This document shows positions 1,683-58,398 of a stretch of DNA of 64,000 bases, piece after piece. The notes under the pieces were generated by a model. That model was not told the origin of the DNA. It searched no databases and was given only the letters and a program-made list of their open reading frames with translations. Positions within the stretch are counted from its first letter, which is position 1. Each line of letters begins with the position of its first letter. Source of the stretch: Actinoallomurus bryophytorum (lineage in GTDB: Bacteria > Actinomycetota > Actinomycetes > Streptosporangiales > Streptosporangiaceae); NCBI RefSeq assembly GCF_006716425.1, contig NZ_VFOZ01000001.1, forward strand, positions 6,200,001 to 6,264,000. Reading direction: 5' to 3'. Made by a program: the position numbers and the translations under genes.

Positions 1683-3200
1683 GTGGTACACCAAGCCCTC
1701 GAAGCCGCCGCGGTCGTGAAGGCGTTTCCCGGCATGCTCGCCCTCGACCATGTCTCACTCTCCCTCGCCCGCGGCGAGGTGCACGCCCTCGCCGGTGAGA
1801 ACGGCGCGGGCAAGTCCACGCTCGTGAAGGTCCTCACCGGCGTCCATCGCCCGGACGGGGGGCGGCTCCGCCGCCTCGGCGAGCCGCTGCGGCTCGACGG
1901 CACCCTCGACGCGCGGCGGGCCGGGATCGGGGCCGTCTACCAGGACGACAACGCGATCCCCTCGATGAGCATCGCCCGCAACCTGTTCCTCGGTGACGAG
2001 CCCCGCGGCCGGTTCGGCCTCATCGACACCGCCCTTATGCACGAGCGGGCGGCCGCCATCCTGCGCGCGTACGGTGTGCCCGCCGACGTGCGCCGTCCGC
2101 TGGGATCGCTCGGCGCCGGCGCGCAGAAGCTCGTGGCGCTCGCCCGGGTGGTGACCGGCGGCGCGCAGGTGATCGTCATGGATGAGCCCACAGCCGTGAT
2201 GGAGCCGCCGGAGGTGCGGACGCTGTTCCGCGTCGTCTGTGAGCTGCGAGAACAGGGCCGGTCCGTGCTGTACGTGAGCCACCGGCTGGAGGAGCTGTAC
2301 GAGATCTGCGACCAGGTCACCCTCCTGCGGGAGGGCAGGGTCGTGCACACCGGTCCGCTGACCGCCCTCGGCCGCCGTGGCCTCGTGTCGCTCATGCTCG
2401 GCCGGCCTCCCGCCCGCCTGCCGGCGGCCCAGCAGGCCGGGGCGCACGAGCGCCCCGGCGACCCGCCCTACCTGCGGGCCACCGGGCTGACCCGGCGGCA
2501 CGCTCTCGCCGACGTCTCGATCGAGCTCCGCCAGGGCGAGGTGCTGGGGCTCGGCGGGCTCCTCGGCGCCGGCCGTACGGAGACGGCCAAGGCCATCGCG
2601 GGCGCGCTGACGCTCGACGCCGGGCAGGTGACGGTCGCGGGTGCCCCTCTGCGCAACCGCTCCATCACCGGGGCCATCCGCGCCGGCGTCAGTCTGCTCC
2701 CGGAGAACCGCAAGACCGAGGGCATCATCCCGAGCCTGTCGATCCGCGACAACATCAGCCTGGCCGCACTGCCGCGCCTGTCGCGGTTCGGTGTCGTCTC
2801 CGGCGCCCGCATCGACCGGATGGTCGACACCTTCATGCGGCGGCTGCAGATCAAGGCGACCTCGCCGCACCAGAAGGTCGCGGAGCTGTCCAGCGGCAAC
2901 CAGCAGAAGGTGCTCCTGGCCCGCTGGCTCGCCATGCGGCCCAAGGTCCTCCTGCTCGACGAGCCGACCCGCGGCATCGACGTCGGGGCGAAGGCCGAGC
3001 TTCAGGACCTCCTGGACGAGCTGGCCGTGGACGGCCTCGCGATCCTGCTGATCTCCTCGGACCTGGAGGAGCTCGTCAACGGCTGTGACCGCGTCGTCGT
3101 CCTGCGCGACGGCGCCGTCGCGGCCGAGCTCACCGGGCTCGACGTCACCGAGGAGGGCATCATCGCCGCGATGGCCTCGGCGGTTCCGCGACGCCGATGA
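1683..3200 (+). CDS. Sugar ABC transporter ATP-binding protein (RbsA/XylG-like), orphan
   Basis: A 505-residue fused double ATPase of the CUT2 sugar importer class. Domain 1 has Walker A GENGAGKST and Walker B VIVMDEPTA. Domain 2 has the usual degenerate P-loop (GGLLGAGRTETAK), signature LSSGNQQKVLLAR and Walker B VLLLDEPTRGID. The domain 1 signature is degenerate (LGSLGAGAQKLVALAR in place of the usual LSVGQQQ form). GTG 1683 is preceded by GGGAGGAG. No permease or binding protein is adjacent. It closely resembles the ATPase at 7656-9206 over its whole length and may be a duplicate of it or share its permeases. Its 3' end overlaps the convergent methyltransferase by 41 bp. Confidence 0.9.
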   Translation: MVHQALEAAAVVKAFPGMLALDHVSLSLARGEVHALAGENGAGKSTLVKVLTGVHRPDGGRLRRLGEPLRLDGTLDARRAGIGAVYQDDNAIPSMSIARNLFLGDEPRGRFGLIDTALMHERAAAILRAYGVPADVRRPLGSLGAGAQKLVALARVVTGGAQVIVMDEPTAVMEPPEVRTLFRVVCELREQGRSVLYVSHRLEELYEICDQVTLLREGRVVHTGPLTALGRRGLVSLMLGRPPARLPAAQQAGAHERPGDPPYLRATGLTRRHALADVSIELRQGEVLGLGGLLGAGRTETAKAIAGALTLDAGQVTVAGAPLRNRSITGAIRAGVSLLPENRKTEGIIPSLSIRDNISLAALPRLSRFGVVSGARIDRMVDTFMRRLQIKATSPHQKVAELSSGNQQKVLLARWLAMRPKVLLLDEPTRGIDVGAKAELQDLLDELAVDGLAILLISSDLEELVNGCDRVVVLRDGAVAAELTGLDVTEEGIIAAMASAVPRRR

Positions 3201-3819
3201 AGTCCCCGGCCATGGACCGGATCCGGACCGACCACCCCAGCGCCGTGAGGTCGTCCGTGAGCGGCCGGACATCGTGGAAGACCTTCACGACGCGATACTC
3301 ACTGCCGTCATCGAGCCGGCGCAGCACCGCCGGGGCCGGCTGGTCCGCCAGGACTTCCTCTTCCGCGGCTATGGCGGGGCCATTGTCGACGAAGATCGCT
3401 TTGCCGCCCGGCGCGAGCGCGGCGGCGACGGTGTTCCAGAAGGCGGGCAGCCGCGCCGGCGGGACATGGGAGAGCCAGAAGGCGAAGAAGACGGTGTCGT
3501 AGCGTCGTGGCGGCCGCCACGCGAACAGGTCGGCCTGGACGAACCGAACGGCGGGGGAGGCTGCGGTACGCGCGCGGGCGAGGGCCAGCACTTCGGCTGA
3601 GGCGTCCACTGCCGTCACCGAACGCGCCCGCGGGGCAAGCCTCGAGGTCCACTGGCCCGTTCCGCAGGCCAGCTCCAGCACGTCACCGGCGATCGGGAGT
3701 TCGTCGACGACGGCCAGCAACTTCCGCAGGCCTTCGTACTCGGCGTACTGCCGGTCGTATTCGGCCGCGCCCGCCTTGTAGTAGGCCAGCTGCTCCGCCA
3801 GGAGAGCGTCGTCATCCAT
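3160..3819 (-). CDS. Class I SAM-dependent methyltransferase
   Basis: A 219-residue small-molecule methyltransferase of Methyltransf_25/UbiE type. Motif I is VLELACGTGQWT near residue 48, the ribose-binding acidic residue is in VTAVDASAEVL, and motif II/III FVQADLFAW follows. The start is ATG 3819, preceded by AAAGGAA on the minus strand, rather than the upstream frame beginning at 3861. It converges on the orphan ABC ATPase with a 41-bp tail overlap. The substrate cannot be told from sequence. Confidence 0.82.
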   Translation of the reverse strand: MDDDALLAEQLAYYKAGAAEYDRQYAEYEGLRKLLAVVDELPIAGDVLELACGTGQWTSRLAPRARSVTAVDASAEVLALARARTAASPAVRFVQADLFAWRPPRRYDTVFFAFWLSHVPPARLPAFWNTVAAALAPGGKAIFVDNGPAIAAEEEVLADQPAPAVLRRLDDGSEYRVVKVFHDVRPLTDDLTALGWSVRIRSMAGDFIGVAEPPRPSRR

Positions 3820-3888
3820 GGGGGTTCCTTTCGGGTCGCCACGGACACTGTCGGGCTTCACCCTGGGGCAAGGTCAAGAATCGCGAGA

Positions 3889-3920: not shown

Positions 3921-6470
3921 TCACTTCCCCGATTGGTAGAGCCGCCCGGCCTCGTCCGCCGACAGGGCGCGGTCGTAGACGTGCACCTGGTCGATGGCGC
4001 CGGGCCAGTAGTCGACCGGGTTCCCGCCGAACCGCCCACGGCCGATCACGGTGTGGCCGGTGGAGGCGTCACCGAGGCAGGCCGGTGCGCTGCCCGCCCT
4101 CTGCCCGTTCACATAGAGCGTGAGGGTGCCGCTCGCGGCGTCACGTACGCCGACGAGGTGGTACCACTGCCCGGTCTGCGGCGCGGTGGGCGCGAGCGCG
4201 CGTACGCCGGCGAAGCTGAACGCGAACCGGTCGTCGGCGCCGGAGTACTGCAGGTAGAAGGCGCTGTTGGTGTCACCGTCCTGGCTCACGGCCGTGGCGA
4301 AGGACCCGAGCCGCTCCAGCTTCACCCAGGCCGACACGCTGTAGTTCCCGGTCGTGTCCAGGATGGCCGCGCCGGTGTCGGCGTACTGGTCCGAGCCGTT
4401 GAACCGCAGAGCGGAGCCGGAGTGTCCGTCGGTCCACACGGGACCGTTCACGAGCGTCGCGTCGTGCCGGCCCGCGCCGTCCCCGGCGACCGTGCCGCTG
4501 CCCTCGTCGAGCGGGTAGAAGGCCACGCCGTCGAGTCCGGGCGTGCCCGGCGGGTACGTCGTCCCGCCACCCTCGCCGACCGAGCCCGACGCCTTGATCA
4601 GCGCGAGGTTCGCGGCGCGTACCTGGTCGGCGCCGGGCTTGAGCACCCGGCGGTCATAGGTGTACATGCCGTTGAGCTCGTCCTCGACGTCGGTGATCTG
4701 CGTGTAGACCGACGCCGAGACACCGCATCTCTTCTCGACCTGCAGCAACTGGCCCTGCAGCTCGGTGTAGCGCCGGGTGAGCGTGGCCGCGTCCGGCTCC
4801 ATCTCGTACGCGAAGCCGTTCTCCGGGTCGAACATGTGCCCGTCGACCCGCAGGCCGAGCCCGCCATACTCGCCGTCCACGGCCGCGCGAGCACCCTGCT
4901 GGCCCGGCGCGCCGGGCCCGACGTAGGTGTGGTTGTCGTAGATGTCGCCCTCGCCGTTGTCGGGGAGTGAGTCGCAGCAGTTGACGCCGCTGTCCGCGTT
5001 CACGAGACGGCTGGGGTCCCACGCCTTGATCTCACTCACGATGCGGCCGGGCTCGTACTCGCCCCAGCCCTCGTTGAACGGCACCCAGGTGATGATCGAC
5101 GGATGGCTGCGGTGCTGGTCGACGAGCGCGTGCAGCTGGGCCTCGAACGGTTCCTTCACCGACGCCGCCGGCGCATGCGAGGCGAACGTCGAGGGCATGT
5201 CCTGCCAGACGAGCAGGCCGAGCCGGTCCGCCCAGTAGTACCAGCGGTCGGGTTCGACCTTGACGTGCTTGCGGACCATGTTGAAGCCGAGCCTCTTGTG
5301 CGCCTCCAGGTCGAAGCGGAGCGCCGCGTCGGTCGGCGCGGTGTAGATGCCGTCCGGCCAGAAACCCTGGTCGAGCGTGCCGACCTGCATGACGAACCTG
5401 CCGTTGAGGAGGGTACGCACCTTGCCGTCCGGGCCCTTGCCGAGGCCGATCGAGCGCATCCCGAAGTACGACCCGGCGGCGTCGACGCTCCTGTGCCCAT
5501 CCAGGATCCGCACCTTCAGCGTGTACAGGTACGGGTCGTCGGGGCTCCACAGGTGGGGATGCGGCACGGGCAACATGAGCGAAGCGCCGGCCCGGCCCCG
5601 CACCTGCCCGACCTTCCGGTACCCGGCGTACGCGGTGGCCTCGACGGTCTGTGACGTGACGCCGGAGGCCCGTACGGTCAGCTTGAGTGCGCCGCCGGCC
5701 AGGTCGGGTGTCGTGTCGAGCCGGTCGATGTGCGCGGCGGCCACCGGTTCCATCCACACGGTCTGCCAGATGCCCGAGGACGGCGTGTAGAAGATGCCGT
5801 CGCCGGCCTGGCGCTGCTTGCCGACCGGCTGGCCGTCGATGTCGGTGGTGTCGTCGACGCCGACGATGACCTCCTGCGGGCCCGCGCCCTTCAGCGCGCC
5901 GGTCACGTCGGCGGTGAAGGAGTCATAGCCGCCGGTGTGCGTCGCGACCCGGACGCCGTTGACGTAGACGGCGGACTGGTAGTCCACGGCCTGGAAGTGC
6001 AGCAGCAGCCGGTCGCCGTGCCACGAGCGCGGCACGGTGAACGTCCGGCGGTACCACATGTGGTCGACGTGCCTCTGGATCCCGGACAGCGCGGACTCCA
6101 CCGGGTACGGGACGAGGATCCGGTCCGCCAGGTCCCTGCCCGCCGGAGGTGCATCGCCCGGGGACGCCTCGGCGAACTGCCAGCTGCCGTTGAGGTTCTG
6201 CCAGCGGGAACGCGTCAGCTGCGGGCGCGGGTAGTCCGGCAGGGCGTTCGCGGGGGAGACCTCGTGGGTCCACGGCGTCGTCAGCTGGGTCTGCGCCTCC
6301 GGCCGGGGCGCGGGCACGGCCGACGCTCCCGCCGGCACGAAGAGGACGGCCAGGAGCACGAGGGCGAGGCCGATGGCGGAGGCCGGGCCACGAGGGCGGG
6401 CCGTTCCGGGGGATCGCGGCGCGTACAAGGACGGGCTCCCATCTGCGCGGGGCGGAGACGGCCTCAGCAT
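3921..6470 (-). CDS. Secreted glycoside hydrolase family 2 protein with C-terminal LamG-like domain
   Basis: An 849-residue exo-type glycosidase, probably beta-galactosidase- or beta-glucuronidase-like. A signal peptide is clear: an Arg-rich n-region, then AIGLALVLLAVLFVPAGASA. GH2 sugar-binding, immunoglobulin-like and TIM-barrel domains follow. The acid/base glutamate lies in FNEGWGEYE (about residue 465) and the likely nucleophile in GEYGGLG (about 533). From about residue 643 a concanavalin/LamG-like domain runs to the end (FYPLDEGSGT through WPGAIDQVHVYDRALS). ATG 6470 is chosen over the TTG at 6494. The gene is divergent from a sugar ABC operon, so its released sugar may be what that transporter imports. 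Confidence 0.9.
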   Translation of the reverse strand: MLRPSPPRADGSPSLYAPRSPGTARPRGPASAIGLALVLLAVLFVPAGASAVPAPRPEAQTQLTTPWTHEVSPANALPDYPRPQLTRSRWQNLNGSWQFAEASPGDAPPAGRDLADRILVPYPVESALSGIQRHVDHMWYRRTFTVPRSWHGDRLLLHFQAVDYQSAVYVNGVRVATHTGGYDSFTADVTGALKGAGPQEVIVGVDDTTDIDGQPVGKQRQAGDGIFYTPSSGIWQTVWMEPVAAAHIDRLDTTPDLAGGALKLTVRASGVTSQTVEATAYAGYRKVGQVRGRAGASLMLPVPHPHLWSPDDPYLYTLKVRILDGHRSVDAAGSYFGMRSIGLGKGPDGKVRTLLNGRFVMQVGTLDQGFWPDGIYTAPTDAALRFDLEAHKRLGFNMVRKHVKVEPDRWYYWADRLGLLVWQDMPSTFASHAPAASVKEPFEAQLHALVDQHRSHPSIITWVPFNEGWGEYEPGRIVSEIKAWDPSRLVNADSGVNCCDSLPDNGEGDIYDNHTYVGPGAPGQQGARAAVDGEYGGLGLRVDGHMFDPENGFAYEMEPDAATLTRRYTELQGQLLQVEKRCGVSASVYTQITDVEDELNGMYTYDRRVLKPGADQVRAANLALIKASGSVGEGGGTTYPPGTPGLDGVAFYPLDEGSGTVAGDGAGRHDATLVNGPVWTDGHSGSALRFNGSDQYADTGAAILDTTGNYSVSAWVKLERLGSFATAVSQDGDTNSAFYLQYSGADDRFAFSFAGVRALAPTAPQTGQWYHLVGVRDAASGTLTLYVNGQRAGSAPACLGDASTGHTVIGRGRFGGNPVDYWPGAIDQVHVYDRALSADEAGRLYQSGK

Positions 6471-48558: not shown

Positions 48559-48932
48559 GCGAGGGAATGCAGGTACGCCGCGAGGTCCTCGGCGACGCGC
48601 ACGTCGACCGGGCCGAGGCGCGCAAGACCGGCTTCACGGCCGACTTCCAGGACTTCATCACCCGGTACGCCTGGGGAGAGATCTGGACCCGGCCGCTGCT
48701 GGACCGCCGCACTCGGAGCTGCATCACCCTGACCGCGCTGGTCGCCGGGGGACACCTGGAAGAGCTGGCCCTGCACGTACGCGGAGCGCTGCGGAACGGG
48801 CTCAGCGCCGACGAGATCAAGGAAGTTCTGCTCCAGGCCGCGGTCTACTGTGGCGTCCCCGCCGCCAACTCCGCCTTCGCCGTCGCCCAGCGCGTCCTGA
48901 TCGAGGACGGTGTGATCACTGGCAGTGATTGA
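48555..48932 (+). CDS. pcaC: 4-carboxymuconolactone decarboxylase
   Basis: A 125-residue decarboxylase yielding beta-ketoadipate enol-lactone. The family pattern is intact: RKTGFTADFQDFITRYAWGE, RSCITLTALVAGGHLEELALH and LLQAAVYCGVPAANSAF. It lacks the CxxC of AhpD relatives, as expected for a true decarboxylase. ATG 48555 overlaps the pcaD stop (ATGA). It is the last gene of the operon. Confidence 0.93.
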   Translation: MSEGMQVRREVLGDAHVDRAEARKTGFTADFQDFITRYAWGEIWTRPLLDRRTRSCITLTALVAGGHLEELALHVRGALRNGLSADEIKEVLLQAAVYCGVPAANSAFAVAQRVLIEDGVITGSD

Positions 48933-48949
48933 TCGATTTCTCTCCGTGC

Positions 48950-49028
48950 CCTAGGGGGGGTAATCTCCCCGTCACACCCCGTGTTCACCAGAGGTGTGAA
49001 CGAGTCTCCGGAACCCCCCGGGAGACCC
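48950..49028. terminator. Hairpin cluster after the pca operon
   Basis: Three short stems occur after the pcaC stop: GGGG/CCCC around TAATCT (48955-48970), GTTCAC/GTGAAC (48983-49001) and GTCTCC/GGAGAC (49004-49028 region). Together they probably terminate the operon, although one could be part of the leader of the next gene. Confidence 0.4.
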
Positions 49029-49048
49029 GATGGATGGGAGATAGGGTC

Positions 49049-49516
49049 ATGCACATGGCAGAGGCCGAGCGGCGGATAAACCAGGTCAAGAACGATGTAG
49101 ACGAGATCTGGGGCAAGCTGACCGATATCGGGAAGGTGCAAGCCGAGCACACGAAGCAGCTCCGAACGCTCAACGACAATGTCGCGAAGGTCTGGACGAC
49201 GCAGCAGCAGCACGGCGACCGGCTCAACGATCTCGACGCCGCCGTCGCCGGCCTGGACGAGAAGCTCACGGAGATGCGCGTCACGCAGCTGAGCCACGAG
49301 AGTCGTTTCACGAAGATCGACAACCGTTTCGCCCAGATCGACAACCGTTTCGCCCAGATCGACAAGCGCTTCGCCCAGATCGACGAACGCTTCGAGAAGA
49401 TCGACGAACGCTTCGCCCAGATCGACGAACGCTTCGAGAAGATCGACGAACGTCTGGTCACGCAGGACAAGAAGCTCGACCTGATCATGAAGGCGTTGAA
49501 CATCGGCGCCAACTGA
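49049..49516 (+). CDS. Heptad-repeat coiled-coil protein
   Basis: A 155-residue protein that is almost entirely alpha-helical coiled coil. From about residue 87 to 140 it consists of seven-residue units of type RFAQIDN/RFEKIDE, repeated about eight times and encoded by near-identical 21-bp DNA repeats (49310-49450). The N-terminal half (INQVKNDVDEIWGKL and VAGLDEKLTEMR) continues the helix. ATG 49049 has GGGAGATAGGG upstream. There are no membrane or enzymatic features. It sits between pcaC and the IclR gene; its role there is unknown and may be unrelated to aromatic catabolism. Confidence 0.75.
   Translation: MHMAEAERRINQVKNDVDEIWGKLTDIGKVQAEHTKQLRTLNDNVAKVWTTQQQHGDRLNDLDAAVAGLDEKLTEMRVTQLSHESRFTKIDNRFAQIDNRFAQIDKRFAQIDERFEKIDERFAQIDERFEKIDERLVTQDKKLDLIMKALNIGAN
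49313..49452 (+). repeat. 21-bp tandem repeats in the coiled-coil gene
   Basis: Units of 21 bp encoding FAQID or FEKID plus two polar residues recur head to tail. The near identity at DNA level implies recent expansion or contraction by slippage. Confidence 0.8.
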
Positions 49517-53438: not shown

Positions 53439-53449
53439 TCTCACAGACT

Positions 53450-53467
53450 CCCCCGCGCAGGCGGGGG
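53450..53467 (+). promoter_or_regulatory. GC hairpin between the unknown gene and tRNA-like unit A
   Basis: CCCCCGC and GCGGGGG form a perfect 7-bp stem with loop GCAG, 12 nt after the stop codon. It may be an RNA-processing or pausing element; no T-run follows, so termination here is unlikely. Confidence 0.5.
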
Positions 53468-53475
53468 AAGCGCAA

Positions 53476-53605
53476 GGAGCGCAAGCTGAAACTGAAGGTC
53501 AGCCTGAACAGCGGTGACAGTGGGGGTTCGAGTCCCTCTCCCGGCACGACGCGCCGGGATGGCCCAACCGGTAGAGGCAGCCGCTCAATCTCAGACTCTC
53601 GCTCC
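53476..53605 (+). tRNA. Circularly permuted tRNA-like unit A
   Basis: The 3' half comes first: anticodon-stem strand AGCGGT (53510-53515), T-arm GGGGG-TTCGAGT-CCCTC (53522-53538), acceptor strand TCCCGGC (53539-53545) and discriminator A. After CGACGC comes the 5' half: acceptor GCCGGGA (53553-53559, perfect 7-bp match), TG, a D-arm with GCC/GGC and GGTA loop, and anticodon strand GCCGCT (53580-53585), which pairs 6/6 with AGCGGT (one G-T). An outer helix GGAGCG (53476-53481)/CGCTCC (53600-53605) brings the ends together. CCA is not encoded. The 5' flank also contains a GCTGA/TCAGC hairpin. Confidence 0.75.
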
Positions 53606-53640
53606 AGATTCAGTATTCGCCACCGAACACCGGATCGACC

Positions 53641-53749
53641 GAGTGCGGACGAAACTCGCCGGGGTGCCGGTTCGAGCCCGGCATGCGGCTCCACGTGCCG
53701 CGTTAGCTCAATAGGTAGAGCACGACGATCTCAGGACTGATCCGCACTC
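53641..53749 (+). tRNA. Circularly permuted tRNA-like unit B
   Basis: The 3' half comes first: anticodon-stem strand CGCCG (53657-53661), T-arm GCCGG-TTCGAGC-CCGGC (53666-53682), acceptor strand ATGCGGC (53683-53689), then TCCA, so CCA is encoded. After CGT comes the 5' half: acceptor GCCGCGT (53697-53703, 7 bp with one G-T), TA, D-arm GCTC/GAGC with a GGTA loop (53706-53721) and anticodon strand CGACG (53723-53727; 4/5 pairs with CGCCG). A perfect 9-bp outer helix GAGTGCGGA (53641-53649)/TCCGCACTC (53741-53749) closes the unit. The right-hand loop ATCTCAG is shared with unit A. Confidence 0.8.
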
Positions 53750-53760
53750 TTAAACGTGCC

Positions 53761-53785
53761 GGTGTGCGCAACTGGGTGGCACACC
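53761..53785 (+). ncRNA. Stable hairpin after tRNA-like unit B
   Basis: GGTGTGC (53761-53767) and GCACACC (53779-53785) form a perfect 7-bp stem with an 11-nt loop, 11 nt after unit B and 1 nt before the terminator. It may mark the 3' end of the processed RNA. Confidence 0.4.
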
Positions 53786-53786
53786 A

Positions 53787-53820
53787 GGGGTCCGGAGGAT
53801 GGACAACGCCTCCGGACCCC
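53787..53820. terminator. Strong bidirectional hairpin terminator
   Basis: GGGGTCCGGAGG (53787-53798) and CCTCCGGACCCC (53809-53820) form a perfect 12-bp stem with a 10-nt loop. It can end the transcript with the tRNA-like units and, on the other strand, the convergent spermidine-synthase-like gene. Confidence 0.75.
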
Positions 53821-53831
53821 ACCACCCGCCG

Positions 53832-54680
53832 TCAGGCGAAGACGCCGTCGGGCGGGGGCGGTGACGGGCGTGCGGTCGCGTCGGTGACCGGTCGTGCTCC
53901 GGCGGTGAATCTCGTGAGCTCGTCCCCGTGCAGTACCCGGCCGGGGAAGGGGTCGCCCGCGGCCCTGCGGACCAGGCCGGCCACCGGTGGTTCGCCGTGC
54001 CCGGCGACCAGGACCAGGTTGCCGAACCTCCGGCCCCGCAGCACCGCCGGGTCGGCGATCAGACAGGCCTCCGGCAGGACCGTACGCAGCGTGGCCACCT
54101 GGGCGCGGGCGAAGGACAGGGGTGCGCCGTCGGCGAGGTTCGCCGCGAACAGGCCCCCGGCGCGCAGGGTGCGCGCGGCGGCGGTGAAGAACTCCACCGA
54201 CGTCAGGTGGGCCGGGGAGCGGCCGCCCGCGTACACATCGCTCACGACCAGGTCGAAGGCGTCCTCCGGTGCGCGCGTGAGGATCTCGCGGGCGTCGCCG
54301 GTACGGATCCGGACCCGGGCTCCGCGGTCCAGCGGAAGCCGCCGGCGTACGAGGTCGACGAGGGCGGCGTCGATCTCGATCACCTGCTGGGAGGAGCGCG
54401 GCCGGGTGGCGGCGACATAGCGTGCCAGGGTCAGCCCCCCGCCGCCGAGGTGCAGGACCCGCAGTGGCCGTCCGGCCGCCGCGGCCAGGTCGGTCACGTG
54501 GCCGAGCCGCCGGACGTACTCGAAGTCGAGATAGGCCGGGTCGTCGAGGTCGACGTGGGACTGTGGCGTGCCGTTCACCACGAGAGTCCACGAGCGCGGC
54601 CGGTCGGCGTCCGGGACGAGCTCGGCGACGCCCGAGTCGATCTTCTCCTCGACGCGGGCCGGGCGCTGTCGGTGTGCCAT
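53832..54680 (-). CDS. Spermidine synthase-like protein
   Basis: A 282-residue Rossmann-fold protein of the polyamine synthase/methyltransferase group. The nucleotide-binding loop is VLHLGGGGLTLARYV (about residue 74), the ribose-binding acid is in QQVIEIDAALVDLV, and DLVVSDVYAGGRSP is the catalytic-region motif. The typical polyamine-synthase active-site tyrosine cannot be confirmed, so it may be a methyltransferase instead. ATG 54680 begins MAHRQRPARVEEK. It converges on the tRNA-like units and stands alone. Confidence 0.8.
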   Translation of the reverse strand: MAHRQRPARVEEKIDSGVAELVPDADRPRSWTLVVNGTPQSHVDLDDPAYLDFEYVRRLGHVTDLAAAAGRPLRVLHLGGGGLTLARYVAATRPRSSQQVIEIDAALVDLVRRRLPLDRGARVRIRTGDAREILTRAPEDAFDLVVSDVYAGGRSPAHLTSVEFFTAAARTLRAGGLFAANLADGAPLSFARAQVATLRTVLPEACLIADPAVLRGRRFGNLVLVAGHGEPPVAGLVRRAAGDPFPGRVLHGDELTRFTAGARPVTDATARPSPPPPDGVFA

Positions 54681-54815: not shown

Positions 54816-57167
54816 ATGACAACGCCCGCCCAGACGCACAGACGAGCGGAGCAGACGAAACCCCTCGGGCCGAGCTACAAGTGGATCGCCCTGTCGAACA
54901 CCACGCTCGGTGTCCTCATGGTGACGATCAACCAGTCGATCGTCCTCATCGCGCTGCCGAACATTTTTAACGGAATCGGGCTCAATCCCCTCGATTCCGG
55001 TAACACGAGTTACCTGCTGTGGATGATGATGGGCTTCTTGGTCGTCACCGCCGTCCTGGTGGTGTCGTTCGGCAAGCTCGGCGACATGTACGGCAGGGTC
55101 CGCATGTACAACCTCGGCTTCGCGGTGTTCACCGTCTGTTCCATCCTGCTCTCGGTCAGCTGGATGCATGGTGCGAACGCGGCGCTATGGCTGATCGGCT
55201 GGCGCATCGTCCAGGGAGTCGGCGGCGCGTTGCTGTTCGCGAACTCCACCGCGATCATCACCGACGCCTTCCCCGCCACCCGGCGTGGCACGGCGCTGGG
55301 CATCAACGCGATCGCGGCGATCGCCGGCTCGTTCATCGGCCTGATCCTCGGCGGTGTCCTGGGGCCGGTCAACTGGCACTGGATCTTCCTCGTCTCGGTG
55401 CCGGTCGGCGTCTTCGGCACGTTCTGGGCCTACATCAAGCTGCACGACACCGGCGTGCGGAAGAAGGCCAAGATCGACTGGTGGGGCAACGTGACCTTCG
55501 CGGTCGGCCTCATCTCCATACTCGTAGGCATCACGTACGGCCTCCAGCCGTACGGCGGTCACACGATGGGCTGGACCAACCCCGCGGTGCTGGGCGCACT
55601 CATCGGCGGCATCGTCATTCTGGTCGTCTTCCTGATCATCGAGAGCAAGGTCAAGGAGCCGCTGTTCCGGCTGTCGCTCTTCCGCGACCGGACCTTCGCC
55701 GCCGGCAACCTCGCCAGCCTGCTGACCGCCCTCGGCCGTGGTGGCCTGCAGTTCATGCTGATCATCTGGCTGCAGGGCATCTGGCTGCCGCAGCACGGCT
55801 ACAGCTTCGAGGACACCCCGCTGTGGGCGGGCATCTACATGATCCCGCTGACGGTCGGCTTCCTGCTGGCGGCGCCGCTGTCCGGCATGCTGTCGGACAA
55901 GCTCGGCCACCGGTACTTCACCGTGGGCGGCACGCTCATCACCGCGCTGAGCTTCGCGCTGCTGCTGGCCATCCCGGTGAACTTCTCCTATGGCGTCTTC
56001 GCCCTGCTGCTGGTCATCAACGGCATCGGCTCCGGCATGTTCGCCTCGCCCAACCGCGCGGAGATCATGAACGCGGTCCCGCCGGACCAGCGCGGCGTCG
56101 GGGCGGGCATGAACGCCACGTTCCAGAACTCCTCGATGGTGCTGTCCATCGGCATCTTCTTCAGCCTGATGGTCGTCGGCCTCTCCCACAGCCTGCCGAC
56201 GACGATGCACGACGGCCTGGTCGCGCAGGGTGTCCCGGACCAGGCGGCGCAGACGGTCTCCCACCTGCCGCCGATCGCCGTGCTGTTCGCCGCCTTCCTC
56301 GGCTACAACCCGATGAAGCAGCTTCTCGGCTCCCAGCTGGACCACCTCCCGCCGGGCCATGCCTCCTACCTGACCGGCCGGAGCTACTTCCCGCGCCTGA
56401 TCACGGAGCCGTTCCACCAGGGCCTGGTGATCGCCTTCCTGTTCGCCATCATCGCCTGCGTCATCGCCGCCTTCGCCTCGCTGCTGACCAAGCGCCGCAA
56501 GTCTCCCCAGCACGAGTCCGTCGGCTCGGAGCTGGCGGGTGTCGCGGGCGAGGCCGACGGCGGGATCGGCGAGCTCAACACGCCGCAGATGTCGCCGAAC
56601 GGTTACGGGCCCTTGCCCACAGAGTCGTTCGTGCACGAGGGCACCGGCAGTCAGGGCTCACACGGTGTCGAGGGATTCGTGCACGACGGCAGGGGAAACC
56701 CCGTGGCGTACGCGGCGATCACGATCGCCGGTCCGGACGGCCACCAGCTCGGGCGCACCAACACCGGTGAGGACGGGCGCTACGCGTTCCAGGCGCCCCC
56801 CGGGGACTATCTCGTGATCACGACCGCGCCCGGGTGGTCTCCGGAGGCGGCCACCGTCCTGGTCGGTTCCTTCGGGGCGGTGCAGGACTTCGTCCTCGTG
56901 CCCGACGAGACGGGCCCGACCGGTGAGATGCGGGGCGTCGTCCGGTCCCCGGACGGGATACCGCTCGGCGGCATCACGACCACGGTCACCGACGAGACCG
57001 GCGAGGTCGTCGCGACGACGACGACCGGTCCCGACGGGTCCTACCAGATCACCGGCCTCGCGGACGGGCACTACACGCTCGTCGCCGCCGGGCACCGGCC
57101 GGCGACGGTCGCGGTCCAGGTCGGCGGGGACGAGCCCGCCACCGTACGCGTGGCACTGGGCGAATGA
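54816..57167 (+). CDS. DHA2-family MFS exporter with two C-terminal carboxypeptidase-regulatory-like domains
   Basis: A 783-residue fusion. Residues 1-570 hold 14 helices of an EmrB/QacA-type exporter, with motif A at GKLGDMYGRVRM and AIAGSFIGLILGGVLGPVNW near 170. A linker (residues 580-610) leads to two transthyretin-like beta-sandwich domains: VEGFVHDGRGNPVAYAAITI (about 613) and MRGVVRSPDGIPLGGITTTV (about 702). The topology would place this tail in the cytoplasm if there are 14 helices. It is much longer than normal DHA2 proteins (about 500). Its stop overlaps the MarR gene as ATGA. Confidence 0.88.
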   Translation: MTTPAQTHRRAEQTKPLGPSYKWIALSNTTLGVLMVTINQSIVLIALPNIFNGIGLNPLDSGNTSYLLWMMMGFLVVTAVLVVSFGKLGDMYGRVRMYNLGFAVFTVCSILLSVSWMHGANAALWLIGWRIVQGVGGALLFANSTAIITDAFPATRRGTALGINAIAAIAGSFIGLILGGVLGPVNWHWIFLVSVPVGVFGTFWAYIKLHDTGVRKKAKIDWWGNVTFAVGLISILVGITYGLQPYGGHTMGWTNPAVLGALIGGIVILVVFLIIESKVKEPLFRLSLFRDRTFAAGNLASLLTALGRGGLQFMLIIWLQGIWLPQHGYSFEDTPLWAGIYMIPLTVGFLLAAPLSGMLSDKLGHRYFTVGGTLITALSFALLLAIPVNFSYGVFALLLVINGIGSGMFASPNRAEIMNAVPPDQRGVGAGMNATFQNSSMVLSIGIFFSLMVVGLSHSLPTTMHDGLVAQGVPDQAAQTVSHLPPIAVLFAAFLGYNPMKQLLGSQLDHLPPGHASYLTGRSYFPRLITEPFHQGLVIAFLFAIIACVIAAFASLLTKRRKSPQHESVGSELAGVAGEADGGIGELNTPQMSPNGYGPLPTESFVHEGTGSQGSHGVEGFVHDGRGNPVAYAAITIAGPDGHQLGRTNTGEDGRYAFQAPPGDYLVITTAPGWSPEAATVLVGSFGAVQDFVLVPDETGPTGEMRGVVRSPDGIPLGGITTTVTDETGEVVATTTTGPDGSYQITGLADGHYTLVAAGHRPATVAVQVGGDEPATVRVALGE

Positions 57168-57621: not shown

Positions 57622-58398
57622 ATGGTGGAGAACACGGCGCTCCGTGAGACGCTCGTCGTCTTCGGCACCGTCCGGCGGACCGAGGGCCCCCCGGTTTCCG
57701 GGGCCGTGGTGACGCTGGCCGACATGGCCGGCCGCAAGATCGGTTCGGCCTACACCGGCCCGGACGGTGAATACCGCCTTACCGTCAGCACCGGCGGCAC
57801 GTACCTGATCATCGCCTCCGCGCTGGGGCACGAGCCGATCGCCTCTCTCGTCGCGGTCGGCGACGAGACGGTCCGTCACGACATGACCGTGGCCGGCGTC
57901 GGCGGGCTCACCGGGATGGTGCGCATCGCCGGCACCGGACGGCCGGTGGCCGACGCCACCATCACCGTCACCGATGTCCAGGGTGAGGTCGTCGGGACCG
58001 CGCGCACCGGAATGGAGGGGGGCTTCTCCTTCATCAGCCTGCCCGAGGGCATGTACACGCTGGTGGTCTCGGCCCCCTCCCATCAGCCGGCCGCCGCGGC
58101 GGTGACCATCCGCCAGGGCGCCCAGGCACGTCAGGACCTGGTGCTGGCCGCGCGCGGCTCGATGCACGGGGAGGTCTGGACGCACGATCGCCCGTACCCG
58201 GGCGCACGGGTCTCGCTGATGAACGAGGCAGGAAAGATCGTGGCGACTACGATGAGCGATTCCGACGGTTTGTTCGTCTTCGAGGACCTTCCGCTGGGGA
58301 CCTACACGCTCGTCGCCGCCGGCCATGGCCCGGCCGCCGTACCCGTCCAGGTGAAGGACGGCAACGCCGTCGACGCCGACGTCACGCTGACCGCCTGA
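57622..58398 (+). CDS. Protein of three carboxypeptidase-regulatory-like domains
   Basis: A 258-residue protein made of three successive beta-sandwich repeats, starting at about residues 12 (VFGTVRRTEGPPVSGAVVTL), 94 (LTGMVRIAGTGRPVADATIT) and 177 (MHGEVWTHDRPYPGARVSL). Each shows the TGPDGEYRL/SDSDGLFVF turn and ends in YTLVVSAPSHQP or YTLVAAGHGPA. There is no signal peptide or anchor, so it appears cytoplasmic, which is unusual for this fold. ATG 57622 has GGAGGAAG upstream. It lies 23 bp after the MarR gene. Confidence 0.82.
   Translation: MVENTALRETLVVFGTVRRTEGPPVSGAVVTLADMAGRKIGSAYTGPDGEYRLTVSTGGTYLIIASALGHEPIASLVAVGDETVRHDMTVAGVGGLTGMVRIAGTGRPVADATITVTDVQGEVVGTARTGMEGGFSFISLPEGMYTLVVSAPSHQPAAAAVTIRQGAQARQDLVLAARGSMHGEVWTHDRPYPGARVSLMNEAGKIVATTMSDSDGLFVFEDLPLGTYTLVAAGHGPAAVPVQVKDGNAVDADVTLTA

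Follow-up and report, generated by a model that had tools for sequence, protein, structure and literature searches.

To our knowledge, Ro60 is the protein with which bacterial Y-type permuted tRNA mimics have been associated until now. Among them, the bacterial Y RNA YrlA has been characterised as mimicking a tRNA in circularly permuted form (PMC11472068), a bacterial Y RNA is described as being modified by DusA and TruB and as tethering Rsr and PNPase (PMC8394870), and YrlA is mentioned as present in several phages (PMC7765460). Permuted two-piece tmRNA genes are likewise described in bacteria (PMC3978253). Hence, the opinion of the first-pass annotation of the present locus, that permuted tRNA-type genes have no well-established family in bacteria, does not stand. 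The locus studied here lies in Actinoallomurus bryophytorum and pairs a DUF7873 gene with two permuted tRNA-like units. A literature search returned no paper on DUF7873, and the titles and abstract openings found on permuted tRNAs or Y RNAs in bacteria and phages contained nothing on this arrangement. We propose, with a probability of roughly 0.6, that the locus encodes a ribonucleoprotein (RNP) made of DUF7873 and a double-headed permuted tRNA-mimic RNA of about 300 nt, which would act like Ro60-YrlA without Ro60.

Two permuted tRNA-like units downstream of DUF7873

The window (the whole stretch of DNA analysed, 64,000 nucleotides) carries on its plus strand the DUF7873 gene (PF25283; 52707-53438; full-length Pfam match of 399 bits) and, 3′ of it on the same strand, two genuine permuted tRNA-like units. 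Each is ordered as T-arm, 3′ acceptor strand, loop, 5′ acceptor strand and D-arm. The first-pass annotation had listed them as two consecutive units at 53510-53585 and 53657-53727; both are present and these intervals match their cores, but they are in fact the two heads of a single predicted RNA linked to DUF7873, and their outer helices reach to about 53475-53624 and 53626-53766. The core of unit 1 (53510-53585) was defined by pattern scan, stem pairing and covariation, and consists of an anticodon stem (53510-53515/53580-53585, AGCGGT with GCCGCT), a T-arm (53522-53538), an acceptor stem (53539-53545/53553-53559, TCCCGGC with GCCGGGA) closed by a loop at 53546-53552, and a D-arm (53560-53578). 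The 6/6 and 7/7 pairs first counted for its anticodon and acceptor strands were both confirmed. Duplex energy supports an outer helix around this core, whose 5′ strand (53475-53507) shows a 6-nt period, CTGAAACTGAAG, and whose 3′ strand (53590-53624) holds a conserved GCTCCAG / GCTCTAG core.

Unit 2 has its core at 53656-53728, as determined by the same three approaches and by an Rfam YrlA match. Its T-arm (53666-53682, T-stem 5/5), acceptor stem (53683-53689/53697-53703, 7/7 with one G-T pair) and D-arm (53704-53721, D-stem 4/4) agree with the earlier counts, while the pairing reported for the anticodon stem (53656-53661/53723-53728) exists with 5/6 rather than 4/5 pairs. The acceptor loop (53690-53696) reads TCCACGT. 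Covariation and a covariance model (alignment A2 and model R1, see below) extended this unit to 53628-53764 through helices H1 (53628-53633/53759-53764) and H2 (53641-53649/53741-53749), with an internal loop, ATCGACC / TTAAACGTG. At the borders of the RNA, the minimum free energy fold placed a hairpin directly 3′ of the DUF7873 stop codon (53449-53468); several phage loci, read by eye, have at this post-stop position a CCC..GGG hairpin whose loop resembles TTGAGC. Sequence and fold also revealed a 12-bp GC-rich hairpin lacking a T-run at 53787-53820, which is probably the 3′ end of the cassette, and a scan for T-tract terminators gave no match. The fold of 53439-53830 was more stable than that of shuffled sequences (z -4.0; 0/100 as good).

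Besides both units, the permuted-pattern scan of the window returned a single poor match. Random pairing or degenerate pieces of tRNA genes, for which nothing was found to speak, are an extremely improbable origin of the units and one already refuted by the homologues: dinucleotide shuffles of the 400-nt region yielded 0 units in 5000, the background in actinobacterial flanking DNA was 5 pattern units per 1,560,728 strand-bases, and the units covary and are conserved across actinobacteria and phages. ARAGORN detected no tRNA in the window. In both units, the acceptor, T, D and anticodon stems are canonically spaced, as they would be in permuted tRNA genes of the kind known from algae and one archaeon, whose transcripts undergo rearrangement to yield functional tRNAs; the first-pass annotation had called the units permuted tRNA-like genes. 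However, the anticodon stems open into further helices (covarying in unit 2, supported by energy in unit 1) and close no anticodon loop, so that no loop halves could be joined, and the splicing system for permuted tRNAs is, in the source that describes it, algal and archaeal (PMC3978253). We consider this explanation very unlikely. The best Rfam match between 50000 and 58000 (cmscan) was YrlA at 53642-53751, with 29.5 bits (E 0.0033) against an RF02553 gathering score of 69 bits. The same interval gave no match to GOLLD or ROOL and no row up to E 5 for the tmRNA model RF00023, with only the best of overlapping clan members being kept.

The window further contains an open frame in which RFAQIDERFEKIDE recurs in tandem as a coiled-coil-like repeat (48929-49516), a major-facilitator transporter fused to carboxypeptidase-regulatory-like domains (54816-57167) and a protein with three matches to such domains (57622-58398), all on the plus strand.

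Pairing and covariation in homologous loci

Homologous loci were then compared. Out of 127 two-unit loci, 96 had moderate loops, and 49 non-redundant loci were drawn from these; alignment A2 comprised 32 of the 49, the more divergent ones being dropped by choice, and model R1 was built on unit 2 from 25 of the 32, with loops longer than 16 nt excluded. The acceptor strands of unit 1 paired 7/7 with each other in 48 of the 49 loci, which is no independent test because the locus pattern demands 6/7 pairs. For this reason, the evidence lies in the variety of the acceptor pairs and not in the pairing rate: the 127 two-unit loci, with 7/7 pairs in 126 (unit 1) and 125 (unit 2), contained 47 and 65 distinct acceptor stems, respectively. 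When the acceptor strands of units 1 and 2 were crossed, pairing fell to a mean of 4.3/7, with six or more pairs in 7/49 and 5/49 loci, in agreement with the earlier statement that each half belongs with its own neighbour. Anticodon stems are outside the requirements of the pattern. They paired with their own partner (score of at least 4) in 47/49 loci for unit 2 (shuffled maximum 27) and in 35/49 for unit 1 (shuffled maximum 23), the other 14 loci having poorly pairing unit 1 stems.

Compensatory change in homologues had been named beforehand as a check on the units, and it proved to be heavy. RNAalifold found compensatory changes in 39 of 46 pairs across the 32 aligned loci. When the anticodon stem of unit 2 was included to give a structure of 52 pairs, 46 pairs showed changes on both sides, a value reached by 0/500 shuffles. 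Similarly, 93.5% of the cells in alignment A2 were paired compared to 69.1% after shuffling (0/500 shuffles reached 93.5%), cells with both-sided changes numbered 413 compared to 121, and sliding the partners by one column lowered pairing to 45-47%. The weakest helix of the structure was the unit 2 anticodon stem (69.8% paired). H1 and H2, neither of which is asked for by the locus pattern, presented both-sided changes in all of their pairs (6/6 and 9/9; 15/15 in alignment A2). The two heads and the outer helices of unit 2 are established from comparative sequence analysis.

For the outer helix around unit 1, the evidence is energetic. Its strands formed a duplex of -19.2 kcal/mol on average with their own partner, compared to -15.8 when partners were swapped and -14.2 when shuffled, and 42 of the 49 loci were below their own shuffled mean; this helix passed no covariation test, nor was it picked out by the column-pair scan. 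Coding was considered for the outer strands, the periodic strand of unit 1 reading K/R-L-K/R-L in one frame. A hidden peptide was rejected: the frame relative to DUF7873 varies between loci (by eye), TAG is frequent within that frame in the 3′ strand, and the outer strands differ in length by 1 nt between loci, which also argues against a tmRNA-type tag there. An imperfect helix is the better reading of the periodic strand. Regarding the relation between the heads, model R1 matched unit 2 with its helices (53626-53766) at 140.5 bits, the locus being a training member, and matched unit 1 (53490-53609) at 40.2 bits (E 7e-8). The latter match fits a shared origin of the two units and is no proof of it, because tRNA-likeness alone reaches such scores.

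Conservation and linkage of gene and RNA

The block formed by the gene and the RNA (from about 52675 to 53823-53840, where genus-wide conservation ends) aligned as a whole with same-genus loci of Actinoallomurus. Flanks were displaced in L089/L085, L091/L086 and L087, each pair looking like the same genome, and were collinear with the window in L088 and L090 (Actinomadura record). Compared to L089, the DUF7873 gene had a dN of 0.047 and a dS of 0.289, values that place it under purifying selection as judged from sequence. By protein, its closest named relatives were Actinoallomurus iriomotensis and Actinomadura sp. DC4 (92% identity each). An AlphaFold2 model (pLDDT 94.3, pTM 0.68) predicted long helices and two long adjacent strands; structure alignment A1 comprised 60 DUF7873 proteins from the loci. 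Foldseek retrieved nothing below E 0.001 from the PDB and no recognisable RNA-binding fold, its other results being weak matches to uncharacterised phage proteins, one viral protein reaching E 0.001. Moreover, DUF7873 had no sequence relative in the PDB at E 0.001 and belonged to no PHROGs, PADLOC or (above cut-off) NCBIfam family.

DUF7873 occurred in 6/296 Actinomycetota genomes, 71 IMG/VR loci, 73 GenBank phage records and, in named genomes of bacteria and archaea, at least 576 stretches, the best 80 of which were kept and were all actinobacterial. Of the 165 loci with enough downstream DNA, 127 had two units, 33 had one and 5 had none by pattern, so that 160 carried one or more in the 750 nt that follow the gene. 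This set retains redundancy, L001 and L006 being a single place and L030 and L079 apparently one phage. Units were found upstream in 7/163 loci and antisense in 0/165. The 160/165 figure is not blind, as viral loci were where the units were first spotted and the pattern was later relaxed on one occasion; the first, stricter pattern had given 156/165. Model R1 recovered the RNA in three of the five patternless loci, on the opposite strand in L035 and downstream in L051/L052. The other two (L018 and L019) are large phage contigs, probably of near-identical viruses, with DUF7873 at 60% identity and with no RNA detected by R1 in the DNA scanned around the gene.

Two further approaches came nearer to a blind test. 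A DUF7873-blind search of IMG/VR with a motif from the 3′ strand of the unit 1 outer helix retrieved 10 viral contigs, 5 of them new; nine of the ten stretches contained DUF7873 or part of it, and the tenth (L214) was on the contig of L021, which is DUF7873-positive. A second motif found one contig that was already known. The other approach scanned 60 relatives with R1, and matches above 60 bits were present in 12 genomes, exactly the 12 carrying DUF7873; among the 296 phylum genomes they were present in six, again the six with DUF7873. A match had to exceed 60 bits to be scored as this RNA, a threshold set after the tables had been seen, when the best match in a DUF7873-negative genome was 54.8 bits; R1 was trained on some of the scanned loci, and the stricter filters of both genome searches lose weak matches. 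Taken together, the sequence data establish a tight linkage between the RNA and DUF7873, which probably serves the RNA as its protein partner. In other genomes, several R1 matches scoring 30-55 bits were discarded as two adjacent ordinary tRNA genes, the first providing the T-arm and the second the D-arm (L175, L176 and L178). Such neighbouring genes are a trap for covariance searches of permuted tRNAs.

Among named phages, R1 scored 106 bits in both Arthrobacter phage Mimi and Gordonia phage GodonK (a training member) and 61 bits in Pseudanabaena phage Pam2. Scores in Rhizobium phage RHph_TM21B (39 bits), Klebsiella phage KpLz-2_45 (39 bits) and Vibrio phage D505 (29 bits) are in a range also reached by ordinary tRNA pairs, and DUF7873 of the Rhizobium phage found no viral relatives when used as query. 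In GodonK, Mimi and RHph_TM21B, the RNA was located within a tRNA array or next to one, and at least one tRNA was present in the DNA around 24 of the 48 two-unit viral loci, a proportion for which there is no baseline in phage loci at large. Among the tRNAs on the viral contig of L030 (2384-2912), one match was to tmRNA (90 bits) and another was tRNA-Sec-like.

Acceptor ends, Ro60 and the proposed particle

Both units preserve features of a tRNA 3′ end. C74 was present in at least 110/127 loci for unit 1 and 125/127 for unit 2, while N73 was A in 114/127 for unit 1 and T or G in 124/127 for unit 2. An encoded CCA was found in 28/48 (unit 1) and 20/48 (unit 2) of the two-unit viral loci, compared to 59/307 ordinary tRNAs from 71 viral loci, where CCA is uneven between contigs. 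These features hint that the acceptor end is recognised or cut, and they would fit a transcript cleaved in its acceptor loops, for example by RNase P, into pieces with free CCA ends that are perhaps aminoacylated, as in two-piece tmRNA. However, some of the loops are only 4 nt long, 16/48 viral loci lack CCA in both units, and in a few contigs (L042, L044, L049 and L066) the ordinary tRNAs carry CCA as well. In addition, no single synthetase identity is kept, because the first acceptor pairs vary freely among loci. Cleavage of this kind is a rather unlikely candidate.

As far as anatomy tells, the RNA would resemble YrlA, and its own genome (95.8% complete) gave no match to a TROVE (Ro60) gene. 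The locus could simply encode a pair of Ro60-binding Y RNAs, for which Ro60/Rsr would come from another place or from the host, DUF7873 being an additional component. In favour of this, YrlA was the best cmscan match, and the low score is weak evidence against it: Ro60-linked actinobacterial RNAs, which are sometimes paired, also fell below the Rfam gathering score when scanned, seven of nine distinct TROVE loci carrying a YrlA match with the best member at 34-56 bits. Furthermore, R1 matched Ro60-linked RNAs at 27-52 bits, TROVE was present in 5/12 DUF7873-positive relatives, in 4/6 DUF7873-positive genomes of the phylum sample and in 5/24 phage records, and the phage contig L042 has a TROVE frame (2362-3870) about 1.1 kb upstream of DUF7873 (5001-5735) and the RNA. 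In the five relatives and five phage records with TROVE, a link with Ro60 is possible. In contrast, besides its absence from the genome studied here, TROVE was missing from 7/12 positive relatives and from 19/24 phage records, including five of the six named phages (contigs may be fragments). All nine genomes with both genes (G107, G128, G161, G182, G321, G324, G336, G342 and G348) had a separate, weaker R1 match about 1.2 kb or less from TROVE, apart from the DUF7873 RNA, and two of the four phage TROVE loci scanned had R1 matches of their own (L221 and L222, as opposed to L223 and L224). A plain YrlA system is therefore unlikely. As a separate observation, TROVE-adjacent streptomycete RNAs (L203, L205, L206 and L208) are tandem pairs below the YrlA threshold, so Rfam may miss many of them.

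The reading that we favour remains a DUF7873 particle analogous to Ro60-YrlA. We infer that the RNA is expressed, is bound by DUF7873 and functions as an RNP. DUF7873 would bind the conserved outer helices and the internal loop, and the heads would reproduce the elbow of a tRNA (T-loop and D-loop) together with the acceptor stem and its discriminator-C74 end, without an anticodon loop. If the heads were thereby recognised by enzymes that normally handle tRNA, the particle would operate in the manner of Ro60-YrlA: DUF7873 would stand in for Ro60, and enzymes that bind tRNA would be tethered or decoyed. That the RNP often sits within phage tRNA arrays suggests that it may help the virus to handle host steps related to tRNA, or to protect them. 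A bolder version, which we put forward tentatively and hold to be possible but doubtful, is that these loci represent a second, Ro60-independent class of tRNA-mimic RNPs, in which RNase P opens the acceptor loops to leave free NCCA ends; phages would use these RNPs, and actinobacteria would have domesticated them, to capture or redirect tRNA enzymes. If the favoured reading is correct, tRNA mimicry in RNPs would be broader than Y RNAs, DUF7873 would gain a function, and the targeting of tRNA enzymes by phage RNA mimics would become testable.

Several known systems share part of this architecture. GOLLD and ROOL are large ornate phage RNAs near tRNA arrays; they resemble the present RNA as structured RNAs in such arrays and, presumably, differ from it in size and structure. 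Algal and archaeal permuted tRNA genes likewise place the 3′ half before the 5′ half and have full tRNA stems, but here there is no anticodon loop to join, the outer helices are conserved, a protein gene is linked and no tRNA product is expected. Two-piece tmRNA shares the permuted gene order of a bacterial tRNA-like domain, whereas two heads and D-stems are found here; tmRNA has a conserved G3-U70, and G-T at 3-70 was rare in our loci (1/47 distinct unit 1 stems and 2/65 unit 2 stems). The closest likeness is to YrlA (RF02553; PDB 6CU1; partner Ro60/Rsr), which is also permuted, with a T-arm, a closed acceptor hairpin and a D-arm, has an anticodon side that runs into a long basal stem and, beside TROVE in some streptomycetes, also includes YrlA-type RNAs arranged two in tandem. 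In contrast to YrlA, the partner gene here is DUF7873 instead of TROVE, the RNA is longer, with two heads and other conserved outer helices and loops, and N73-C74 is retained in most acceptor loops and CCA in many. What would be new is a double-headed version with a different protein partner, present in actinobacterial phages and probably also in phages that infect other bacteria.
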